DNA of 64,000 nucleotides, from positions 744,001-808,000 of the forward strand of contig NZ_CP135164.1 in the NCBI RefSeq assembly GCF_001940225.2. The letters run 5' to 3'. The position numbers and the translations under genes were made by a program. Source of the stretch: Roseburia sp. 499. GTDB lineage: Bacteria; Bacillota; Clostridia; Lachnospirales; Lachnospiraceae. This document shows positions 1,998-12,297 of this stretch, one piece after another. Positions within the stretch are counted from its first letter, which is position 1, and each line of letters opens with the position of its first letter. The notes under the pieces were generated by a model. That model saw nothing but the letters and a program-made list of their open reading frames with translations, had not been told where the DNA came from and did no database searches.

Positions 1998-2834
1998 ATG
2001 TACCGTGTTACCAAGGCATTAAACCATAATGCAATATTAGCAGTAAAGGAAAACAGCGTAAAGGAATATCTTTTGCTGGGAAAGGGAATCGGATTTGGAA
2101 AAAAGGTATCAGAATATGTAGAACCGGGTGAGGATGTCAGAGTATATTCCTTACAGTCTGATTCAGAGCGTGGAAATGCCAGAAAAATGGTACGGGATAT
2201 GGATCCGGTATATTTAGAGATTTCTAATGCCATACTAAAAAAGGCAGAAGAAGAGTTTGGTAAGATAGACCGGAGCATACTCTTTCCTATGGCAGATCAC
2301 ATTGCATTTGCAGCAGAAAGAATTCGCAAAGGGGAACAAATTAGTAATCCACTGACTCAGGATATACAGGTATTGTTCTATAAGGAATATAAGATTGCAG
2401 AATTGGCAGAGGAGTTGCTTTGGCAGATGGAGGGAATCCGTATTGATAAGGATGAGATAGGATATATTGCACTTCATGTTCATTCCTCCATCTGTGATGA
2501 AAATGTATCCAATGCTATGCAGATTGCAGCGGCAGTGCGTGAGTGTGTTGCAATGATTGAGGAAGAGACGGGCAGTAAGATTGATGTACAGACCCTTTCT
2601 TATAACCGTTTGATGAATCATGTGAAATATATGGCAGCGAGAGGTATGACCGGAGAAGAATTGAAACTGGATATGAATGAATATATTGAGAAGCAGTATC
2701 CAAATTCTTTTCAGATTGCAGATGAAGTGTGTAAGCATCTCTCCCGCGCACTTCAAATAGAACTGCCGGAAATTGAGATAGGATATCTGGCAATGCACAT
2801 AGAACGTGTATGCTCCAATGAAATAGAAAGTTAA
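1998..2834 (+). CDS. BglG/LicT/GlcT-family transcription antiterminator
   Basis: A 278-residue protein with the family's usual length and architecture: an N-terminal CAT RNA-binding domain (about residues 1-58, starting MYRVTKALNHNAILA and containing GKGIGFGKK), then two PTS regulation domains. PRD histidines are visible in MADHIAFAAER, YIALHVHSS, NRLMNHVKYM and YLAMHIERV. These proteins bind an RNA antiterminator in the leader of a PTS gene, and HPr or enzyme II phosphorylation of the PRDs sets activity. It lies between the PTS permease and ptsH, so it probably controls the permease. The target leader would be upstream of the window and cannot be inspected. Confidence 0.9.
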   Translation: MYRVTKALNHNAILAVKENSVKEYLLLGKGIGFGKKVSEYVEPGEDVRVYSLQSDSERGNARKMVRDMDPVYLEISNAILKKAEEEFGKIDRSILFPMADHIAFAAERIRKGEQISNPLTQDIQVLFYKEYKIAELAEELLWQMEGIRIDKDEIGYIALHVHSSICDENVSNAMQIAAAVRECVAMIEEETGSKIDVQTLSYNRLMNHVKYMAARGMTGEELKLDMNEYIEKQYPNSFQIADEVCKHLSRALQIELPEIEIGYLAMHIERVCSNEIES

Positions 2835-2871
2835 ATTATTACAAAAAGAAAATGAAAGAGAGGAAACGAAA

Positions 2872-3129
2872 ATGAAAACATTTCAGTACAAAATTACAGA
2901 AGAAGTAGGAATTCATGCAAGACCGGCAGGACTTTTGACAAAGGCAGCAAAGGAATGTGGTTCCAAGGTTACCATTTCCAGCAATGGTAAGAGTGCAGAT
3001 GCAACTAAGTTGATGGCTGTTATGAGCCTTGGTGTAAAATGTTTTGATGAGGTTACTGTTACCGTAGAAGGTGAAAATGAAGAAGAAGCAGCAGCTCAGA
3101 TGGAAAAGTTTTTCAAGGAGAATCTGTAG
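2872..3129 (+). CDS. ptsH: Phosphocarrier protein HPr, lacking Ser46
   Basis: 85 residues, with the active His15 in GIHARPAG. It carries phosphate from enzyme I (next gene, 14 bases downstream) to PTS permeases in the cytosol. In Gram-positive HPr, Ser46 is phosphorylated by HPrK/P and then binds CcpA for catabolite repression. Counting from Met1, position 46 here is Lys (the segment reads DATKLMAVMSLG where Bacillus subtilis has NLKSIMGVMSLG), so the regulatory phosphosite is missing. Thr45 is the nearest hydroxyl. The gene has a good AGAGAGG ribosome-binding site. Confidence 0.92.
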   Translation: MKTFQYKITEEVGIHARPAGLLTKAAKECGSKVTISSNGKSADATKLMAVMSLGVKCFDEVTVTVEGENEEEAAAQMEKFFKENL

Positions 3130-3143
3130 ACAGGAGAGATTTC

Positions 3144-4766
3144 ATGGAAAAATATAGTGGTAAGTCAATTTTTCAGGGAATTGCAATTGGAAAATTATTG
3201 TTTTATGAAAAGCAGCAGGCAGAAGTAAAACGACATAAGATAGAAGATAAGACAGCAGAAATTGAGCGCTATGAAAAAGCGAAAGAAACTGCTATTGCAC
3301 AACTTCAGAAGTTATATGAAAAGGCATGTAAAGAAGTAGGAGAAGTAAATGCTGCCGTATTTGAAGTGCATCAGATGATGCTGGAGGATGAAGATTATAA
3401 TGATTCCGTGCGAAATATGATTGAGCAGCAGGAAGTAAATGCAGAGTATGCGGTAGCTGTAACAGGAGATAATTTTTCTAATATGTTTGCTGAGATGGAG
3501 GATGAATATTTCAGTGCAAGAGCAGCAGATATTAAAGATATTTCAGACCGCGTCGTATCTGTGCTTTGTGGTGGAGACGGAGGCGTGAATGATTTGGACG
3601 AGCCGGTTATTTTGGTGGCAGATGATTTGGCCCCAAGTGAAACTGTTCAGATGGATAAGGAAAAACTCCTGGCATTTGTAACAGAGCAGGGCTCATCCAA
3701 CTCCCATACAGCAATTTTAGCCAGAACCATGAATATTCCGGCATTGATAGGAATAGCCATTCAGAAAGAATGGAATGGAAAAATGGCAGTAGTGGATGGA
3801 TTTACAGGCACTTTGTATGTAGAGCCTACCGCTGAAGTCTTAGATGAGATGACAGAGAAGCAGAAAAAGCTATTAGAAGAACGGGAATTGCTTCAGGAGT
3901 TGAAAGGAAAAGAGGATATTACAAAAGACGGACGTAAAATCAAGCTGTATGCTAATATTGGCAATGTTTCTGATGTTGCAGGGGTACTTAAGAATGATGC
4001 AGCAGGAATTGGTCTGTTCCGTAGTGAATTCCTGTATTTGGAAAAGGATCATTTTCCAACAGAAGAGGAACAGTTCTTTGCCTATAAGACAGTAGCAGAG
4101 AGAATGGCAGGGAAGAAGGTTATTATCCGTACATTGGATATCGGTGCTGATAAGCAGGTAGATTACTTCAATCTGGATAAGGAAGAAAATCCTGCTATGG
4201 GCTATCGTGCAATCCGTATCTGTCTCACACAGCCAGATATATTTAAGACACAGCTTCGTGCCTTATTCCGTGCAGCAAAGTATGGAAATATTGCAATCAT
4301 GTATCCTATGATTACTTCGGTAGGTGAGGTAAGAAAAATTAAGGAAATCGTGGCAGAAGTAAAGGAAGAATTAGAGAAAGCAGAAATCCCTTACGGAGAA
4401 GTAGAACAGGGAATCATGATTGAAACACCGGCAGCAGTTGTTATGAGTGATGAGTTGGCGAAGGAAGTGGATTTCTTCAGTATCGGAACCAATGATTTGA
4501 CTCAGTATACACTGGCAATTGATCGGCAGAATGCAAAATTGGATGACTTCTATGACTCTCATCATCCTGCAATTCTTCGAATGATACAGATAGTTATTGA
4601 TAATGGTCATGCTAACAACTGTTGGGTTGGTATTTGTGGAGAATTAGGAGCAGATACAACTCTTACGGAAACATTTGTAAAAATGGGAATTGATGAATTA
4701 TCCGTTTCACCGGGATTCGTACTTCCGATTCGAAAAATCATTCGCCAGATGGAGAGTGGAAAGTAA
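3144..4766 (+). CDS. ptsI: Phosphoenolpyruvate-protein phosphotransferase (PTS enzyme I)
   Basis: 540 residues, slightly shorter than the usual 570. The N-terminal HPr-binding and phosphohistidine domain shows GSSNSHTAILARTMNIPAL, with the active His after GSSNS. The C-terminal PEP-binding TIM barrel shows GIGLFRSEFLYL, IRTLDIGADKQ, NPAMGYRAIR, and IGTNDLTQYTLAIDR, followed by the GICGELGAD motif carrying the catalytic Cys. It autophosphorylates on PEP and passes phosphate to HPr. It is the last gene of the visible PTS run and is followed directly by an intrinsic terminator. Confidence 0.96.
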   Translation: MEKYSGKSIFQGIAIGKLLFYEKQQAEVKRHKIEDKTAEIERYEKAKETAIAQLQKLYEKACKEVGEVNAAVFEVHQMMLEDEDYNDSVRNMIEQQEVNAEYAVAVTGDNFSNMFAEMEDEYFSARAADIKDISDRVVSVLCGGDGGVNDLDEPVILVADDLAPSETVQMDKEKLLAFVTEQGSSNSHTAILARTMNIPALIGIAIQKEWNGKMAVVDGFTGTLYVEPTAEVLDEMTEKQKKLLEERELLQELKGKEDITKDGRKIKLYANIGNVSDVAGVLKNDAAGIGLFRSEFLYLEKDHFPTEEEQFFAYKTVAERMAGKKVIIRTLDIGADKQVDYFNLDKEENPAMGYRAIRICLTQPDIFKTQLRALFRAAKYGNIAIMYPMITSVGEVRKIKEIVAEVKEELEKAEIPYGEVEQGIMIETPAAVVMSDELAKEVDFFSIGTNDLTQYTLAIDRQNAKLDDFYDSHHPAILRMIQIVIDNGHANNCWVGICGELGADTTLTETFVKMGIDELSVSPGFVLPIRKIIRQMESGK

Positions 4767-4776
4767 ATAGAAAAGA

Positions 4777-4813
4777 CCTTTGTTATCTGAAAAGATAGCA
4801 AAGGCTTTTTTTA
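4777..4813 (+). terminator. Intrinsic terminator after ptsI
   Basis: Arms CCTTTGTTATCT (4777-4788) and AGATAGCAAAGG (4793-4804) pair with one G-T wobble around a GAAA loop. A run of eight T follows. This closes the PTS operon. Confidence 0.9.
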
Positions 4814-4857: not shown

Positions 4858-7476
4858 ATGGGCAAAATTTGTATAGCTGTACTGGCGCATGTAGATGCCG
4901 GAAAGACAACTTTATCAGAGGCAATGCTTTATCACAGTGGAAGCATTCGGAAAATGGGAAGAGTAGACAATCAGGATGCTTTTTTGGATAACTATGCACT
5001 GGAACGGGAACGTGGCATCACTATTTTTTCCAAGCAGGCAGAACTCAAACTTGGGGAACAAGAGATTACGCTGTTGGACACTCCTGGACATGTGGATTTT
5101 TCAGCGGAAATGGAACGAACCTTACAAGTATTAGATTACGCTATTTTAGTCATCAGTGGGGCAGACGGTGTTCAGGGACATACTAGGACTTTATGGCAGC
5201 TGTTAAAGCGATATCAGGTACCGGTTTTCTTATTCATCAATAAAATGGATCAGCCTGGAACAGATGAGCAAGTGCTTATGGAGCAGTTGCGGGATGGTTT
5301 GTCAGAAAACTGCATTGATTTTTCTGTAGGAGAGTCGGAAGAATTTTATGATAATATTGCCATGTGTGGTGAAGAAGCTATGGAGCAGTTTTTAGAAGAT
5401 GGCAGTATTAAAATAGAACAGGTCAGAAAAATGATACAGGAACGAATGATATTTCCGTGTTTTTTTGGTTCTGCGTTAAAGGAGCAGGGGGTAGAAGAAT
5501 TCTTAGAAGGACTTGTTGCGTATAGTCAAGTGCCTTCCTATCCGAAGGAGTTTGGAGCAAGGGTATTTAAGATTGCAAGAGATGAACAAGGAAATCGACT
5601 GACATACTTAAAAGTAACAGGAGGAAGTCTTAGGGTAAAAACGATACTTCCGGGCCAACAGGAGAAGATTAATCAGATTCGGATTTACTCCGGAGAAAAA
5701 TATATTACCGTAGAAGAAGCAGAAGCCGGAACAATTTGTGCTGTAACCGGATTGAGTCAGACCCGTCCGGGAGAGGGCTTTGGTATGGAGTCTGAAGTAT
5801 CTGTACCATTGCTAGAACCTGTGCTGACTTATCAGATTTTACTTCCGGAAGGAATGGATGCAGCAGTAGCACTTCCGAAGTTGCGCCAGCTTGAGGAAGA
5901 AGAACCGGAACTTCATATCGTCTGGGAGGAACAACTGCAAGAAATTCGGGTGCAGGTCATGGGGGAAGTACAGATAGAGATTCTGAAATATCTGGTAAAA
6001 GAGCGGTTTGGAATAGAGATTGAGTTCGGAGCAGGAAATATTGTATATAAAGAGACCATACGAAATGTAGTAGAAGGCGTGGGACATTTTGAACCATTAC
6101 GTCATTATGCAGAGGTACATCTTAGAATGGAACCGGGAGAGCCAGGAAGTGGGCTTCAGTTTGCCACTGAATGTAGCGAAGATGTGTTAAGTCGTAACTG
6201 GCAAAGATTGATTTTGACACACTTGGAAGAAAAAGAGCATAAGGGTGTCTTGACCGGTGCACCGATTACGGATATAAAGATTACTTTGACTACTGGCCGA
6301 GCTCATCAGAAGCATACCGAAGGTGGAGATTTCCGACAGGCAACTTATCGGGCAGTACGACAGGGATTAAAACAAGCGGAATCTGTACTGTTGGAACCGT
6401 ATTATTCCTTTCGACTTGAAGTGCCGGAAAGCAGTATTGGACGTGCTATGACAGACTTAGAGCGGATGCATGGAGTGTTTGAAACACCGGAGATTCAAAA
6501 TGGGAGAGCGGTGCTTACAGGAAGTGCACCGGTGGCGTTGCTTCAGGATTATCCTAAAGAAGTGACAGCATATACCAGGGGGGAAGGTAAGCTCTTTTGC
6601 ACGATTTTGGGATATGGCCCTTGTCACAACGAGGAAGAGGTTATTGCAGAGAAGTGTTATGATTCAGAAGCGGATTTAGAGAATCCTACAGGTTCTGTGT
6701 TCTGCGCTCATGGAGCAGGATTTGTAGTAAATTGGGACGAGGTTAAAAATTATATGCATCTGGAAAGTACACTAGAGACTGCAGAAGTATCACAGATAGA
6801 AGAGGAGCCGATATTTACAGAATATACAGAAGAAATGTGGATTGATACGGAAGAAATTGATGAAATCCTGTCAAGAACATATGGAGCAAATAAGAAAGAC
6901 AAGGGGAATTCTGTAGAAAGTGGTTTTGCCAAAAAGCGTAAGCCATTAGAAATATCTTCTGTAACCAGAACCTATCAGCCGAGAAAGTCAGAGGAAGAAT
7001 ATCTGCTGGTAGATGGTTATAACGTGATTCACGCATGGGAAGAGTTGAAAGAGCTGGCAGAGACCAATCTGGACGGAGCAAGAGGAAAGCTCATGGATAT
7101 TTTGTGTAATTATCAGGGGATTCGTAAGTGTAATTTGATTGTAGTGTTTGATGCTTATCGTGTAAAAGGACATGCAGCAGAGGTGACGGATTATCATAAT
7201 ATCCATGTGGTATTTACGGCTGAAGCAGAGACTGCAGACCAGTATATTGAAAAATTTGCCCATGAAAATGGAAAAAAATATCGTGTGACAGTAGCAACTT
7301 CAGATGGACTAGAGCAGATTATTATTCGTGGGCAGGATTGTCTGTTGTTGTCGGCACGGGAACTAAAGGAAGAAATAGAACGAGTATCAGAACAGACCAG
7401 GCAGGAATATATGAAAGAGCAAGCGGGAGAACGGAATCGTCCTATGGAGGAGTTGCTAAAAGAAGTACATATTTAG
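4858..7476 (+). CDS. EF-G/Tet-like ribosome GTPase fused to a C-terminal NYN (Rae1/YacP-like) nuclease domain
   Basis: 872 residues. The N-terminal two thirds is a translational GTPase of the EF-G/Tet(M) type: G1 AHVDAGKT near residue 8, RGIT switch I, DTPGH, and NKMD, then domains II to V. At about residues 714-855 a second domain begins with YLLVDGYNVIHAWEEL (Asp719) and continues with VVFDAY and VTVATSDGLEQ, the pattern of NYN/YacP proteins. Rae1 (YacP) of Bacillus subtilis cleaves mRNA in the ribosomal A site. The domain IV loop reads GRAHQKHTEGGDF and lacks the YSPVST loop used by Tet(M)/Tet(O) to displace tetracycline, so resistance is not supported. Inference: a single-chain ribosome-acting GTPase-nuclease. 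It stands alone between two terminator/promoter regions. Confidence 0.85.
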   Translation: MGKICIAVLAHVDAGKTTLSEAMLYHSGSIRKMGRVDNQDAFLDNYALERERGITIFSKQAELKLGEQEITLLDTPGHVDFSAEMERTLQVLDYAILVISGADGVQGHTRTLWQLLKRYQVPVFLFINKMDQPGTDEQVLMEQLRDGLSENCIDFSVGESEEFYDNIAMCGEEAMEQFLEDGSIKIEQVRKMIQERMIFPCFFGSALKEQGVEEFLEGLVAYSQVPSYPKEFGARVFKIARDEQGNRLTYLKVTGGSLRVKTILPGQQEKINQIRIYSGEKYITVEEAEAGTICAVTGLSQTRPGEGFGMESEVSVPLLEPVLTYQILLPEGMDAAVALPKLRQLEEEEPELHIVWEEQLQEIRVQVMGEVQIEILKYLVKERFGIEIEFGAGNIVYKETIRNVVEGVGHFEPLRHYAEVHLRMEPGEPGSGLQFATECSEDVLSRNWQRLILTHLEEKEHKGVLTGAPITDIKITLTTGRAHQKHTEGGDFRQATYRAVRQGLKQAESVLLEPYYSFRLEVPESSIGRAMTDLERMHGVFETPEIQNGRAVLTGSAPVALLQDYPKEVTAYTRGEGKLFCTILGYGPCHNEEEVIAEKCYDSEADLENPTGSVFCAHGAGFVVNWDEVKNYMHLESTLETAEVSQIEEEPIFTEYTEEMWIDTEEIDEILSRTYGANKKDKGNSVESGFAKKRKPLEISSVTRTYQPRKSEEEYLLVDGYNVIHAWEELKELAETNLDGARGKLMDILCNYQGIRKCNLIVVFDAYRVKGHAAEVTDYHNIHVVFTAEAETADQYIEKFAHENGKKYRVTVATSDGLEQIIIRGQDCLLLSARELKEEIERVSEQTRQEYMKEQAGERNRPMEELLKEVHI

Positions 7477-7487
7477 AGGATTGTTTA

Positions 7488-7516
7488 TTGAAGACGGAAG
7501 GCGTTGATGGTATAAT
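7488..7516 (+). promoter_or_regulatory. SigA-type promoter for the YhgE/Pip operon
   Basis: TTGAAG (7488-7493), a 17-base spacer and a perfect TATAAT (7511-7516). An AGGAGG ribosome-binding site follows at 7526-7531, ahead of ATG 7539. Confidence 0.75.
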
Positions 7517-7538
7517 ATTAATATTAGGAGGTACGGCC

Positions 7539-9767
7539 ATGAAGAATATATTAACGATATTTAAATCAGATGTAAAAAGGTTGGTAAAGAATCTGTTGGC
7601 ACTTATTATTATCATCGGATTATGCTTTTTACCATCATTGTATGCTTGGTTTAATATTTATTCTAATTGGGATCCTTATTCCAATACCGCTAATATTAAA
7701 ATAGCAGCTTTTTCAGAAGATAAAGGATATACACTTCCGGATGGAACAACAGAAAATATGGGAAATGAAGTATTAGAGGAATTAAAGACAAATGAGTCCA
7801 TAGGGTGGGTGATTGTAGATACTTCAGAAGAGGCAATTGAAGGAGTAAAAAGTGGAGATTATTATGCAGCCGTTGTCATTGAAAAGGATTTTACCTATAA
7901 AATGTACAATATGTTTGCAGAAGGATTTGCCAATCCCGGTATTACATATTATGAGAATCAAAAGAAGAATGCAGTAGCAACTAAAATTACAGATACAGCG
8001 GTTTCCACCCTGCAGCAAAGTATTGATGCAAAGTTTATAGAAGTGGTCATTTGTACGGTGTTTGAGCAGACTAATGCAATGTCTGGGGAGTTGGAAAACA
8101 GCAATAAGATAGAGGAATTCATTGGAAAAATAGAAGGAATCAATGAAAACCTCAAAGAATATGAGGCAGCAGTCAGTAGCCTTTTAGAGGGAAATGAGGC
8201 TCTGACCGCATCAGTGGGTGAAGCCAAGGGAAAGCTTCAGGGACTGCAGGAAAAGGTGGCAATAGGAATTAGCGATATAGATGCAGTAAGTGGAAATATT
8301 GCCAATACACAGACACGCCTTTCTGATTTTAGCGCGAATGTAAATACATCTCTTGCAACCATTGAAACATCTTTGAATAAGATTGCCACAGATATTTCAA
8401 ATGCAAAATTGGCAGATAAGACAAGTACAGTAGTGTCAGATATGACGCAGGCAGCTCAGGATGTGGCAGAATTGCAGAAACAAATTGCGGAGTTGGTGAC
8501 AGCATTGAATAATATTACAATGCCGGAGGATAGCCAGCAGAGTCAGGAATTAGAACAACAGCTTCAGGAGGCATTGGAAGCTCTTAATTCCCTTGCAAAT
8601 GGAGCCGGAGATATTCAGAATGCTTTAGAACAGCTTGGAATTGCAGGAGAAAAAACAGGAAGTTTAGCAAATATGGATACCGGCAATTTACCAAATGTAG
8701 CAAATGATATTCGGGAAAGTCTGGTAAATGCCAAAGTAGGAGATATCACAGCTACACTTACCAGTTGCAGCAATTCTGTGGCAAATATGAGAAATATGTA
8801 TACCAATAGTCTGGTGCCGCAGGTGGATGGTATTCTGGATAGTACAGGACAGATTTTGGGAACAGTATCTCAGTTGTTAGAAAGCACGGATGAAACATTG
8901 GAAAATACCAGTGATATTTTCGATGGTGTGGTAACGACATTAGATGGAGCAAATCAGAGTCTGGAACAGATTCAGACAATTTTACAGAGTGTAAGCGGGA
9001 AGTTGACTGCAATCATAGATAAGTTGAATAGCGTAAGCGAGGATGAAAGGGTAGATGCATTGATAGAGCTTATGCAGGGAGACCCGGATACCTATGGTGA
9101 GTTTTTCTCAGAGCCGGTAAAAATTGACACGAAACAGGTGTATCCTATTGAAAATTATGGTTCTGCCATGACACCTTTTTATACAGTGCTTGCATTATGG
9201 GTAGGAGCCATGCTTTTAGCTGCATTAGTAAAGGTAAAGGCGGAGCCGAAAAATATGCCGGATGTAAAGTTGTATCAGTTGTTTTTTGGGAGATATTTGT
9301 TATTTTTTGTATTAGGGCAGATTCAGGCGCTTATTGTAGTGCTAGGAGATATTTATCTCCTGCATTGTCAGATTCTGGATAAGGGAATGTTCTGGTTGAC
9401 TGCATCGGTAACAAGCTTTGTATTTACGTTGCTGATATACGCATTGACTCTTTCTTTCGGAGATGTGGGAAAGGCTATTGCAGTAGTTATTATGGTTATT
9501 CAGATTGCAGGCTCCGGTGGAACCTTCCCAATTGAGCTTTTGCCTTCTGTTTACCGAAATATTTATATCTTCTTCCCGTTTCCGTACGCTATCAATGCTA
9601 TGAGGGAGACCATTGGAGGAATGTACGGAAGTACCTATGTAAAATCTATGGGAGAACTGCTGATATTTGCAGTTGCGTCCCTTGTAATTGGATTAATAAT
9701 TAGAAAACCATTTATCAAACTAAATCATTTCGTGGAAAAACGAATGGAAGATACGAAAATGATGTAA
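7539..9767 (+). CDS. YhgE/Pip-family membrane protein, copy 1
   Basis: 742 residues from ATG 7539, which is preceded by AGGAGG; the open frame extends further upstream into the previous gene but without a ribosome-binding site. One transmembrane helix near the N-terminus (SLYAWFNIYSNWDPYSNTANIKIA follows it, a family hallmark) leads to a long extracellular region rich in coiled coil and Q/S/N-heavy heptads. About five or six helices lie at the C-terminus and resemble an ABC-2 permease. YhgE/Pip proteins include the phage-infection protein of Lactococcus and ESX/type VII-like envelope proteins; the exact function is unknown. A paralogue lies two genes downstream. Confidence 0.85.
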   Translation: MKNILTIFKSDVKRLVKNLLALIIIIGLCFLPSLYAWFNIYSNWDPYSNTANIKIAAFSEDKGYTLPDGTTENMGNEVLEELKTNESIGWVIVDTSEEAIEGVKSGDYYAAVVIEKDFTYKMYNMFAEGFANPGITYYENQKKNAVATKITDTAVSTLQQSIDAKFIEVVICTVFEQTNAMSGELENSNKIEEFIGKIEGINENLKEYEAAVSSLLEGNEALTASVGEAKGKLQGLQEKVAIGISDIDAVSGNIANTQTRLSDFSANVNTSLATIETSLNKIATDISNAKLADKTSTVVSDMTQAAQDVAELQKQIAELVTALNNITMPEDSQQSQELEQQLQEALEALNSLANGAGDIQNALEQLGIAGEKTGSLANMDTGNLPNVANDIRESLVNAKVGDITATLTSCSNSVANMRNMYTNSLVPQVDGILDSTGQILGTVSQLLESTDETLENTSDIFDGVVTTLDGANQSLEQIQTILQSVSGKLTAIIDKLNSVSEDERVDALIELMQGDPDTYGEFFSEPVKIDTKQVYPIENYGSAMTPFYTVLALWVGAMLLAALVKVKAEPKNMPDVKLYQLFFGRYLLFFVLGQIQALIVVLGDIYLLHCQILDKGMFWLTASVTSFVFTLLIYALTLSFGDVGKAIAVVIMVIQIAGSGGTFPIELLPSVYRNIYIFFPFPYAINAMRETIGGMYGSTYVKSMGELLIFAVASLVIGLIIRKPFIKLNHFVEKRMEDTKMM

Positions 9768-9782
9768 AAAGGAGTGAGGAAA

Positions 9783-10178
9783 ATGGAAGATGATAAATAT
9801 AAAAAAGCATATGATATGGTGATGCACTATGAAGGACAGATTCATCAAAAGAATCAGAAGAGAATTTCCATTGGACTAAAATGTATTCTCGTTATCCCGT
9901 TGATTTTTCTTGCTCTTTTGTTTTGGACAAATAGCTCGAAAGTTATATTTCTCATACTTTGGATTGTTTCTCTATTTATTTTGGCAGCATATTTAATTGC
10001 TGTAGAATATATGGATTACAATCTTATGGAACGTATGGCGAAGTTAAATGGGGAAGAACAGGAGATGGAAGGATATCAGCTCATCGGAAATGAAGTGTTG
10101 GAGAACCGGATACAAGAAGTATTAGAAAAAATAGAGAGTGAAGAAGGCATGGAGGGCGGAAATGAAAAACATCATTAA
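9783..10178 (+). CDS. Small two-helix membrane protein between the Pip paralogues
   Basis: 131 residues. ATG 9783 is chosen because AAGGAG lies nine bases upstream; a GTG at 9774 sits too close to it. Two hydrophobic stretches occur around residues 32-50 and 55-75 (VIPLIFLALLFW, VIFLILWIVSLFILAAYLIAV), with charged ends and a C-terminal acidic helix. No family is recognised. It overlaps the next gene by 17 bases, so the three genes form a translationally coupled set and this one is probably a partner of the flanking Pip proteins. Confidence 0.7.
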   Translation: MEDDKYKKAYDMVMHYEGQIHQKNQKRISIGLKCILVIPLIFLALLFWTNSSKVIFLILWIVSLFILAAYLIAVEYMDYNLMERMAKLNGEEQEMEGYQLIGNEVLENRIQEVLEKIESEEGMEGGNEKHH

Positions 10179-12297
10179 AATCTTTCTTGCAGATACCAGA
10201 AGAATCAGTAAAAATGTAGTAGCAGTAGTGATTGTTATGGGGCTTTGTGTCATTCCGTCGCTATATGCCTGGTTTAATATTTTTTCAAATTGGGATCCAT
10301 ATGGTCCGGATGCTACTTCTAATCTGAGGGTTGCAGTGGTCTCTTTAGACCAGGGAAGCACAGTTTCGGGTGTGGAATTAAATGTTGGTGATAGTGTAAT
10401 TGAAGGATTAAAGAGTAATAATACCATAGGCTGGGTTTTTACCGATACCGAGGATGAAGCGGTTAAAGGAGTAAATAACGGAGATTACTATGCTGCTCTT
10501 GTAGTACCTGAGAATTTTACAGAGGATATGATAAGCTTTTTAGGGGGCGATATTCAACATCCTCAAATTGTATATTACGAAAATGAAAAGAAAAATGCAA
10601 TTGCGCCTAAGATTACCGGAAAAGCAAAGAAGGCGGTACAGGAACAGGTAAATAGTACCTTTGTCAGCACATTGGCAGAAGGAATTATGGAGGTAAGTAA
10701 TGTATTATCCGGTCGAGAAGGAGAAAACGGAAGCGTATTTGATACTGTTACAGAAAAATTAGTAGAATTAAAGGAAAATCTGCAATTGTATTCTAATTTG
10801 CTCAGTTCGTTTATTGGAATTACAGATTCAGCGTCTAATATTATGGCAACCAGTCAGGCGGTGTTGCCTAACCTGAATGATATCGTTAATAATGGGAAAA
10901 ATACTATTAACAGCATACAGGATGCAGCGTTGAATAATTCGGGTAGTGCAGAGTCACTACTGGATATGGTATCTTACAGTTTTAAAATTGTAGATGGTGC
11001 ATTAGAGGATTTGAAGAATGCAGTTCAGTCAGATTTAAATTCTATTGATGGGCAATTGGATGCAAATAGTGCGATTGGTGGTATTCAGACGGCACTTCCT
11101 TATATACGTCAGTTGTTTAATAATGCGGTATCCGGATGGACGGATGAAGGCACGCAGTTAAAAATTGATGAAATTAATAGTAGTCTGGATACGATTGAAG
11201 CAGATTTGAATAAGTTATCTGCCAGTCAGACAGAATTGTCGGATACAGCAGAAGCGTTGAAAAACAATTTAGTACAGGAAATTATTACATGTCAGAATCA
11301 AATACAAGCATTAAAAGATAGTTTTGAATATTCCGTAAGACCTAACTTACGTTCTACAATGAATTCCGTTCAGAGTTCACTGTTAGATGTACAGTCTATG
11401 TTGGGAGGTATGGATGGTGATTTTAGTGAAGTTGAAGAAGTTTTGGCAGAATATGAAGGAGTACTAAAGGATGGAACAGCAGGACTGGAAGAGTCTAGGG
11501 CGAAAACAGAAGAAGTAATTGCCAGTCTGGATGTCGTTGTTACCAGTTTAAAAGAATTTGAAAATGATGAACAGTATCAGGAACTAGTGGATATGTTAAA
11601 AACAGACCCAAAACAGCTTGCGGATTTTATTTCATCTCCGGTAAGCCTGGAGACGGAGCAGATATATCCAATTGCTAATTATGGTTCTGCTATGGCACCT
11701 TTTTATACAATACTGGCGCTTTGGGTTGGTGCATTAATTTTGGTTGCTATTGTACATGTAAAGGTACTCCCGGAGAAAGGAATTACTAATGTGAAGCCTT
11801 ACCAACAATATTTTGGAAGATATATTTTCTTCTTCCTAGTGGGACAGGTGCAGACATTAATTACAATATTGGGAGAGATATTCTATATAAAAATACAATG
11901 TCCGCATCCGTTTCTATATTGGCTTGCGGCGGCAGTTAGCAGTTTGGTATTTACCATATTCATCTATTCATTGACAGTGGCTTTTGGAAATATCGGAGAA
12001 GCGCTTGCAGTGGTCATAATGGTCATTCAGGTAGCAGGAGCCGGAGGAACCTTTCCAATCGAGACCTTACCGAAGGTATATCAGTACACTTACAAATATC
12101 TTCCATTTCCGTATGGAATGAATGCTATGCGAGAATGTATCGGAGGAATGCATGGAGCTGATTATTTGAAATATATCGGTGTAATGGGAATATATGTAGT
12201 AATCTCTTTGGTGATTGGATTGTTGTTGGCAATTCCATTTAGGAAAATGAACGAAAGAATTGAGCGTAGTAAAGAAAAATCAGATGTTATGATTTAA
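10162..12297 (+). CDS. YhgE/Pip-family membrane protein, copy 2
   Basis: 711 residues from ATG 10162, with GGAGG six bases upstream and inside the previous gene. Same architecture as the 7539 gene: N-terminal helix, the family segment SLYAWFNIFSNWDPYG, a long helical extracellular region, and a C-terminal block of about six membrane helices containing GSAMAPFYTILALWVGALI and GAGGTFPIETLPKVYQ, which match NYGSAMTPFYTVLALWVGA and GSGGTFPIELLPSVYR in copy 1. The two copies are clearly paralogous and may form a heterodimeric membrane complex. The stop codon sits in the loop of a shared terminator. Confidence 0.85.
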   Translation: MKNIIKIFLADTRRISKNVVAVVIVMGLCVIPSLYAWFNIFSNWDPYGPDATSNLRVAVVSLDQGSTVSGVELNVGDSVIEGLKSNNTIGWVFTDTEDEAVKGVNNGDYYAALVVPENFTEDMISFLGGDIQHPQIVYYENEKKNAIAPKITGKAKKAVQEQVNSTFVSTLAEGIMEVSNVLSGREGENGSVFDTVTEKLVELKENLQLYSNLLSSFIGITDSASNIMATSQAVLPNLNDIVNNGKNTINSIQDAALNNSGSAESLLDMVSYSFKIVDGALEDLKNAVQSDLNSIDGQLDANSAIGGIQTALPYIRQLFNNAVSGWTDEGTQLKIDEINSSLDTIEADLNKLSASQTELSDTAEALKNNLVQEIITCQNQIQALKDSFEYSVRPNLRSTMNSVQSSLLDVQSMLGGMDGDFSEVEEVLAEYEGVLKDGTAGLEESRAKTEEVIASLDVVVTSLKEFENDEQYQELVDMLKTDPKQLADFISSPVSLETEQIYPIANYGSAMAPFYTILALWVGALILVAIVHVKVLPEKGITNVKPYQQYFGRYIFFFLVGQVQTLITILGEIFYIKIQCPHPFLYWLAAAVSSLVFTIFIYSLTVAFGNIGEALAVVIMVIQVAGAGGTFPIETLPKVYQYTYKYLPFPYGMNAMRECIGGMHGADYLKYIGVMGIYVVISLVIGLLLAIPFRKMNERIERSKEKSDVMI

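Follow-up and report, generated by a model that had tools for sequence, protein, structure and literature searches.

The 64,000-nucleotide stretch of Roseburia sp. 499 DNA analysed here (the window; positions 744,001 to 808,000 of contig NZ_CP135164.1) carries on its plus strand a gene (4858..7476) encoding a fused protein of 872 amino acids (aa): a Tet/EF-G-like GTPase, a linker and a nuclease of the Rae1 (YacP) type with an NYN domain. By open reading frame (ORF) analysis of the window the gene runs from ATG to stop without a frame break, and the claim of a preliminary description that both enzymes lie in one frame was borne out by this reading and by Pfam domains of both parts; the motifs on which it relied (AHVDAGKT, DTPGH, NKMD, YLLVDGYN with D719, VVFDAY with D765 and ATSDGLEQ with D816) are all present. 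The G domain (GTP_EFTU, aa 5-222, 4870..5523), which holds the first three of these motifs with residues mostly invariant or more than 90% conserved among 110 aligned relatives, fused and unfused, is followed by domains II and III (aa 232-391, 5551..6030; EF-G_D2 at 232-304 and EFG_III at 320-391 in Pfam), domain IV (EFG_IV, aa 394-508, 6037..6381) and domain V (EFG_C, aa 510-592, 6385..6633). Alignment further defines the tip loop of domain IV, AHQKHTEGGDFR (aa 482-493, 6301..6336), as a family signature, and a family-specific extension past domain V (aa 589-635, 6622..6762) that reads CHN...SVFCAHGAGFVVNW...MH. The linker (aa 643-710, 6784..6987) is mostly predicted by AlphaFold2 to be disordered, with a predicted local distance difference test score (pLDDT) below 50 at 643-663 and 674-710 and a short helix at 664-675, and 45 of the 48 fused proteins measured have 75-140 aa between the V.W motif and the beginning of the NYN domain. 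The NYN_YacP nuclease domain (aa 716-869, 7003..7464; acids D719, D765, D794 and D816) was placed by Pfam and alignment. The full-chain model (AlphaFold2, VIA-align) has an EF-G/TetM-like body up to about residue 628, a disordered stretch and a folded NYN domain; the rows of the whole-model fold search reach model residues 1-632 at most, and the relationship of the NYN domain rests on sequence.

The nuclease domain exceeds the Pfam cut-off (177.4 bits against 24.6, E 3e-52) and aligns with Bacillus subtilis YacP/Rae1 (PDB 5MQ8 and 5MQ9) over 139 residues (E 4e-26). The two domains are homologous and share the same active-site residues, D719, N722, D765, D794 and D816 of the fused protein corresponding to D7, N10, D53, D81 and D104 of Rae1. 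The preliminary description had made the nuclease assignment hang on the acids falling at the active-site positions of Rae1, and all four do; the catalytic acids are retained in 239-240 of 240 fused proteins. Rae1 of B. subtilis stands alone and measures about 170 aa, and the native relatives considered have an Arg motif at the C-terminus, whereas in the fused protein the NYN domain is C-terminal to the GTPase, the Arg motif is lost and the gene is relocated. By alignment, the C-terminal Arg occurs in all 38 native and all 10 close standalone proteins, in only one or two of 48 fused proteins and in 5 of 240 fused database proteins, and it is absent from fused protein P0001 too. R118, which like the C-terminal Arg was derived as a Rae1 feature in this analysis and not taken from print, is present in 38/38 native and 10/10 close standalone proteins, in 21 of the 48 fused proteins and in 120 of the 240 from the database, and its position is occupied by L830 in the fused protein of the window. 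The simplest reading of the loss of the Arg would be that a recruiting or docking role of the Rae1 tail has been taken over by the GTPase.

YacP is present in 138 of 150 genomes of the window's family, and a search for the same fusion elsewhere, which the preliminary description had proposed, found a fused frame of at least 840 aa in 125 of these 138 (in 16 of the 125 the profile match contains stop codons, probably past the natural C-terminus). Seven family genomes have a standalone YacP (G716, G822, G692, G747, G684, G721 and G711) and six have partial or split frames (G744, G780, G776, G705, G746 and G801). The fused form is the usual Rae1 of this family and not a rarity. In the class, YacP occurs in 250 of 393 genomes, as a single copy in 245, and among the 150 matches listed 80 are fused, 65 standalone and 5 in between; a phylum sample has YacP in 163 of 299 genomes, and fused genes were found outside the class too. 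Fused hosts include Roseburia sp. MSJ-14, Anaerostipes, Agathobacter rectalis, Monoglobus pectinilyticus, Anaerovorax odorimutans and Intestinimonas butyriciproducens. Leaving aside P0002, the cluster that holds the window's own protein, the closest clusters are 83% identical over their full length, and among the best 80 of 591 relatives in named genomes a single ORF holds both domains at 80/80 loci, with the letters KHT in 79. The full-length identity and the one-ORF loci argue that the fusion is neither a chance event nor an assembly artefact. We note that in G705 (L199:5513-8198), G235 (L139:1083-3672) and G044 (L141:3130-5759) the GTPase and the NYN domain lie in two overlapping frames, possibly through sequencing error, frameshift mutation or genuine splitting. 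One viral_contigs scan, sensitive to close relatives only, returned nothing that would indicate a viral source.

No second YacP match besides the fused gene was found in the home genome. Its corresponding operon (L090) reads cysE-cysS-mrnC-rlmB-sigH, with an rlmB to sigH gap of 18 nt and without rae1; rlmB was identified by a score over its NCBIfam cut-off, and the names cysE, cysS, mrnC and sigH were assigned from Pfam domains and gene order. Of 41 distinct loci with a standalone gene, largely those with the highest scores, 35 have the order rlmB-rae1-sigH; in the stretch seen, five others have rae1-sigH without an adjoining rlmB and one (G209) has neither. The fused gene of the home genome lies outside this usual location, as would be expected of a relocated gene. 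All 32 genomes queried have rlmB; 28 of them are fused, and loci were obtained for 26 of the 28. None of these 26 has an intact rae1 beside rlmB (the contigs of G254 and G077 end within 520 nt), and sigH follows rlmB in 13 of them in the stretch seen. The slot of G370 holds two broken rae1 pieces that lie out of frame with each other (small-search E values of 4e-11 and 2e-6; 26.5 and 21 bits with the Pfam profile, the second below cut-off) and are closer to native standalone genes than to fused ones (52 vs 33 and 35 vs 31), and the slot of G116 holds a 59-aa broken piece most similar to standalone rae1 from the family of G116 (52 bits, the best fused gene reaching 23.5). Weak slot fragments are also present in G022 and G139 (E 0.001-0.004, small search). 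In G284 (L204:649-3479), outside the 26 loci, an intact native rae1 in the operon slot accompanies an intact fused gene, possibly a transitional state. A series is visible in the relatives, from both genes intact through a broken native gene to a native gene that is gone, and comparison of the genomes provides strong evidence that the fusion has taken the place of standalone rae1. Three related genomes (G208, G174 and G120; L206-L208) encode a protein of 160-162 aa whose YacP match is weak, at 21 bits below the cut-off, and which perhaps belongs to another NYN family.

At the domain IV tip the preliminary description had claimed that the tetracycline loop YSPVST is replaced by AHQKHTEGGDF, and the alignment agrees: at this place YYSPVSTPADF is found in TetM, in TetO and in L091, the Tet protein of the home genome, and YHEVDSSE in EF-G. 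H483 of the fused protein is kept and aligns with a domain IV tip His of EF-G, and H486, T487, G489, G490, D491, F492 and R493 are invariant in 110 sequences, fused and unfused. Within the extension, C589, S613, F615, C616, G619 and W626 are invariant in alignment A3, which comprises 90 fused proteins and 20 unfused GTPases and does not include L050, a deviating member with a loop that departs from KHT.GGDFR and Phe at 616. Fused and unfused members have the extension; the Tet-like protein of the home genome and its two EF-G-type proteins lack it. The invariant C589 and C616, together with H618 and H634 (more than 90% conserved in A3), could form a metal site past domain V. The fused protein carries the whole subfamily signature, the H.KHT.GGDFR loop and the C...SVFC.HG...W...MH extension. 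Unfused members, collected with a profile of the GTPase part (A2), are about 640-700 aa long; those with the KHTEGGDF loop, such as LSL_RS10690 of Ligilactobacillus salivarius pMP118, belong to the same group and share loop and extension in the 14 aligned, but lack the nuclease and end soon past the extension. These 14 and 48 fused proteins form one group against the home Tet protein and the two EF-G-type proteins (support 99/97), and the unfused GTPases form one clade (100/99) with the fused row L159 weakly beside it; the bootstraps of this tree and of the second NYN tree are not fully settled. By these alignments and trees the GTPase is a subfamily of its own, defined here by the KHTEGGDF loop. 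TetB(P), considered as a family member, was rejected at 31.5% identity. The unfused relative on pMP118 of L. salivarius UCC118 (L164:5986-7920; 663 bits to the GTPase part) adjoins rpsN, encoding S14, and its annotation on this megaplasmid as TetM family is perhaps a resistome false positive.

The NYN tree of 94 rows, which omits the long-branch fused rows L049 and L050 by choice and L197s by the program, has a branch (100/100) with 38 native standalone proteins on one side and 46 fused plus 10 unfused ones on the other; these 10 all come from the window's family or order and include the split gene of G705. In an earlier NYN tree L050 lay beside the native standalone clade. The fusion could have arisen from the few standalone relatives, or they from it by splitting, the tree being compatible with either. 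Within family f21, G017 and G116 are fused and G094 and G206 have the native nuclease type, and the fusion-type NYN domain of fused genes in other families, whose relatives have the native type, suggests that the fused gene has been transferred. Fusion is a strongly clustered state, needing 2 and 3 changes on the GTPase and NYN trees where shuffled states need about 15 and 31. The trees do not prove a single origin; the NYN tree has 3 changes, and its starred branches force 2.

The GTPase and YacP also tend to occur together when they are separate genes. An unfused GTPase is encoded elsewhere in six of eight family genomes with standalone YacP (G716, G822, G692, G711, G209 and, truncated, G747), these eight being the seven from the family search plus G209 from the class search, and is missing in all 12 family genomes without YacP, of which six have matches of at most 308 bits (the level of EF-G) and six none at the limit applied; the comparison of 6/8 with 0/12 gives a Fisher p of 0.0007, with kinship ignored. 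In the class, with GTPase status set by hand (best E about 1e-195 or lower, plus the fragment in G156), YacP occurs in 154 of 160 GTPase-positive genomes, fused ones included, vs 96 of 233 GTPase-negative ones. All three genomes of the phylum sample with a full unfused member (G566, G589 and G667) have YacP; hits scoring 454-485 bits, in G597, G453 and G412 and as a second one in G589, were left out of the membership. Both the replacement of rae1 and this co-occurrence favour a joint function at the ribosome, and the evidence that the GTPase and the nuclease act together can be called moderate.

Directly upstream of the fused gene in the window (1998-4766) lie genes for an antiterminator-type protein (CAT_RBD and PRD), HPr and enzyme I of the phosphotransferase system, preceded by a transporter-like ORF (24-1976). 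A terminator-like hairpin with a T-run (4777..4804, plus strand) separates the fused gene from that of enzyme I and may make the fused gene its own transcription unit; its support is weak, with one such hairpin seen against a mean of 1.7 in shuffled sequence. Downstream (7338-12297) are two large membrane-protein-like ORFs of 809 and 719 aa with ends that look alike by eye, for the first of which the listed TTG start falls within the fused gene and is unlikely to be the true one. In the window no Rfam match over the gathering score and no tRNA was found. No conserved neighbourhood emerged from 47 fused loci, in which the top shared neighbour family, ABC ATPase-like, occurs in just 7.

We propose that the fused gene is probably the Rae1 endoribonuclease of these Clostridia, relocated and tethered by a linker to a Tet/EF-G-like GTPase, and that it would thereby deliver itself to ribosomes. 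Sequence comparison shows intact GTPase motifs and an intact nuclease site in a single gene, replacement of rae1, a distinct subfamily and the loss of the tail motif in fused forms; ribosome binding, A-site cleavage, the order of events, the trigger and the target of the GTPase are what we infer beyond this. The GTPase would dock where translation factors bind, on ribosomes whose A site is abnormal or empty, and there the KHTEGGDF tip of domain IV may probe or clear the decoding site. GTP hydrolysis would then release the GTPase body while the tether holds the nuclease nearby, and the NYN domain could enter the vacated A site and cut the mRNA, after which the ribosome would be committed to rescue and the mRNA to degradation. 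Rae1 is able to attack mRNA in the ribosomal A site, and this cleavage frees the site for tmRNA (available part of PMC12320835); Tet proteins bind over the A site, and GTP hydrolysis is apparently needed for them to leave (available part of PMC8161019). As both parts would use the same A site and the linker spans 75-140 aa, a hand-over in which the GTPase enters and leaves before the nuclease enters would fit. The preliminary description had likewise suggested that one chain could first remodel and then cut, and the comparative data favour its broader idea of a joint function. More tentatively, and somewhat less likely than not, the KHTEGGDF GTPase may be the dedicated delivery or remodelling factor of Rae1, acting in trans when unfused and in cis when fused; by analogy this would be a bacterial rescue machine of GTPase and nuclease resembling that of eukaryotic no-go decay, and many 'tetracycline-resistance' proteins would then belong to mRNA quality control.

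Several observations weigh against this proposal. The A site that Rae1 needs is also where domain IV of a bound GTPase would sit, which would force sequential steps, and the two enzymes need not share one ribosome, the fusion possibly providing just co-expression or localization. The domain arrangement in the AlphaFold2 model is uncertain (predicted template modelling score, pTM, 0.65). An alignment-free C-terminal pattern is less clean than the aligned Arg, occurring in 31 of 38 native and 8 of 10 close standalone proteins and in 2 of 48 and 27 of 240 fused ones. The lack of YacP in 12 of 150 family genomes implies that the system is dispensable, and among the standalone genomes of the family G684 is without the GTPase, G721 has a distant one (424 bits) and that of G747 is the truncated one. 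Outside fusions the class link is modest (13 of 18 listed unfused vs 96 of 233, p 0.013, kinship again ignored). Furthermore, 96 of the 250 YacP-positive class genomes lack the GTPase, so that Rae1 commonly occurs on its own and can in general do without it; the reverse, a GTPase in a genome that lacks YacP, is seen in 6. These last counts would also suit two independent activities that are merely co-localized, a specialized EF-G-like factor (for example one that restarts paused ribosomes) and an ordinary Rae1 NYN domain, as would the flexible linker and the retained EF-G-like His at the tip. We consider this rather unlikely, as the GTPase and YacP are jointly absent from all 12 of the YacP-negative family genomes, the loss of the C-terminal Arg is confined to fused forms and fused proteins cluster strongly on both trees.

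Another explanation is that the protein confers antibiotic resistance, its GTPase dislodging tetracycline or another drug of the decoding site and its RNase acting on rRNA or drug-stalled complexes, as was proposed in the available part of a 2015 paper (PMC4342817). The best NCBIfam profile is indeed tet_protect, many members are named as TetM, TetW, TetO or TetS family in databases, and one unfused member bears the name 'ribosome protection-type tetracycline resistance related proteins, group 2'. However, the fused protein reaches only 417 bits on tet_protect and four unfused members 393-456, against a cut-off of 775; it also stays below the cut-offs of the TetM/W group (295 vs 1100) and of EF-G (304 of 659 bits). 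The home genome has a separate TetM/W/O/S-type protection gene (L091:2462-4381, on C1 at about 10.5-12.4 kb; 639 aa) that passes its cut-off with 1310 vs 1100 bits, as well as two separate EF-G-type genes with the EF-G loop. Compared with Tet(M) and Tet(O) the fused protein has KHTEGGDF for the drug-contacting loop, with Lys485 in place of Pro509 of Tet(M), and a C-terminal extension and nuclease, and TetB(P) is not close. In most family genomes it is a single-copy gene that displaces another single-copy gene, which is not what a resistance gene would be expected to look like. Judged by the profile cut-offs, the loop, the way the gene is distributed and the presence of another Tet gene in the home genome, resistance is improbable as the main function, and the view of the preliminary description that the target is not tetracycline finds support in the same cut-offs and loop. 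An older proposal for YacP, repeated in the available part of the 2015 paper (PMC4342817), is that the NYN domain processes rRNA or tRNA, and the GTPase would then bring it to ribosome assembly intermediates. The ancestral neighbours, an rRNA methylase and an RNase III-domain protein, would suit such a role, but no neighbour is common to more than the 7 of 47 fused loci noted above and in B. subtilis the substrate of Rae1 is mRNA in the ribosomal A site (available part of PMC12320835); we regard this last explanation as highly improbable.

The architecture is already known and its meaning is new. A Tet protein with a YacP-like NYN domain was described from ten clostridial species and read as Tet with possible RNase resistance (Atkinson 2015, PMC4342817, in the part available), and those proteins have the same architecture as the fused protein; relative to that part of the paper, the replacement of rae1, the status of the GTPase as a subfamily and the scale are added here. 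The replacement, the subfamily and the link through split genes were not found in the literature searched, although Condon 2018 on the distribution of Rae1 may mention the fusion.

Rae1 is one of few bacterial enzymes known for cutting mRNA inside the ribosome. Ribosome-associated endonucleases that act on mRNA at stalled ribosomes are also represented by Cue2 with Hbs1/Dom34 in eukaryotes and by bacterial SmrB; the eukaryotic case joins an endonuclease with a translational GTPase, but as separate and unrelated proteins, whereas here they form one chain. The covalent fusion, the loss of a conserved part of the Rae1 tail and the displaced standalone gene name a candidate delivery factor for Rae1 and make it testable how the enzyme is brought to particular ribosomes. 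They also suggest that a large group of chromosomal proteins of gut Clostridia labelled as tetracycline resistance does something else, which matters for resistome counts.

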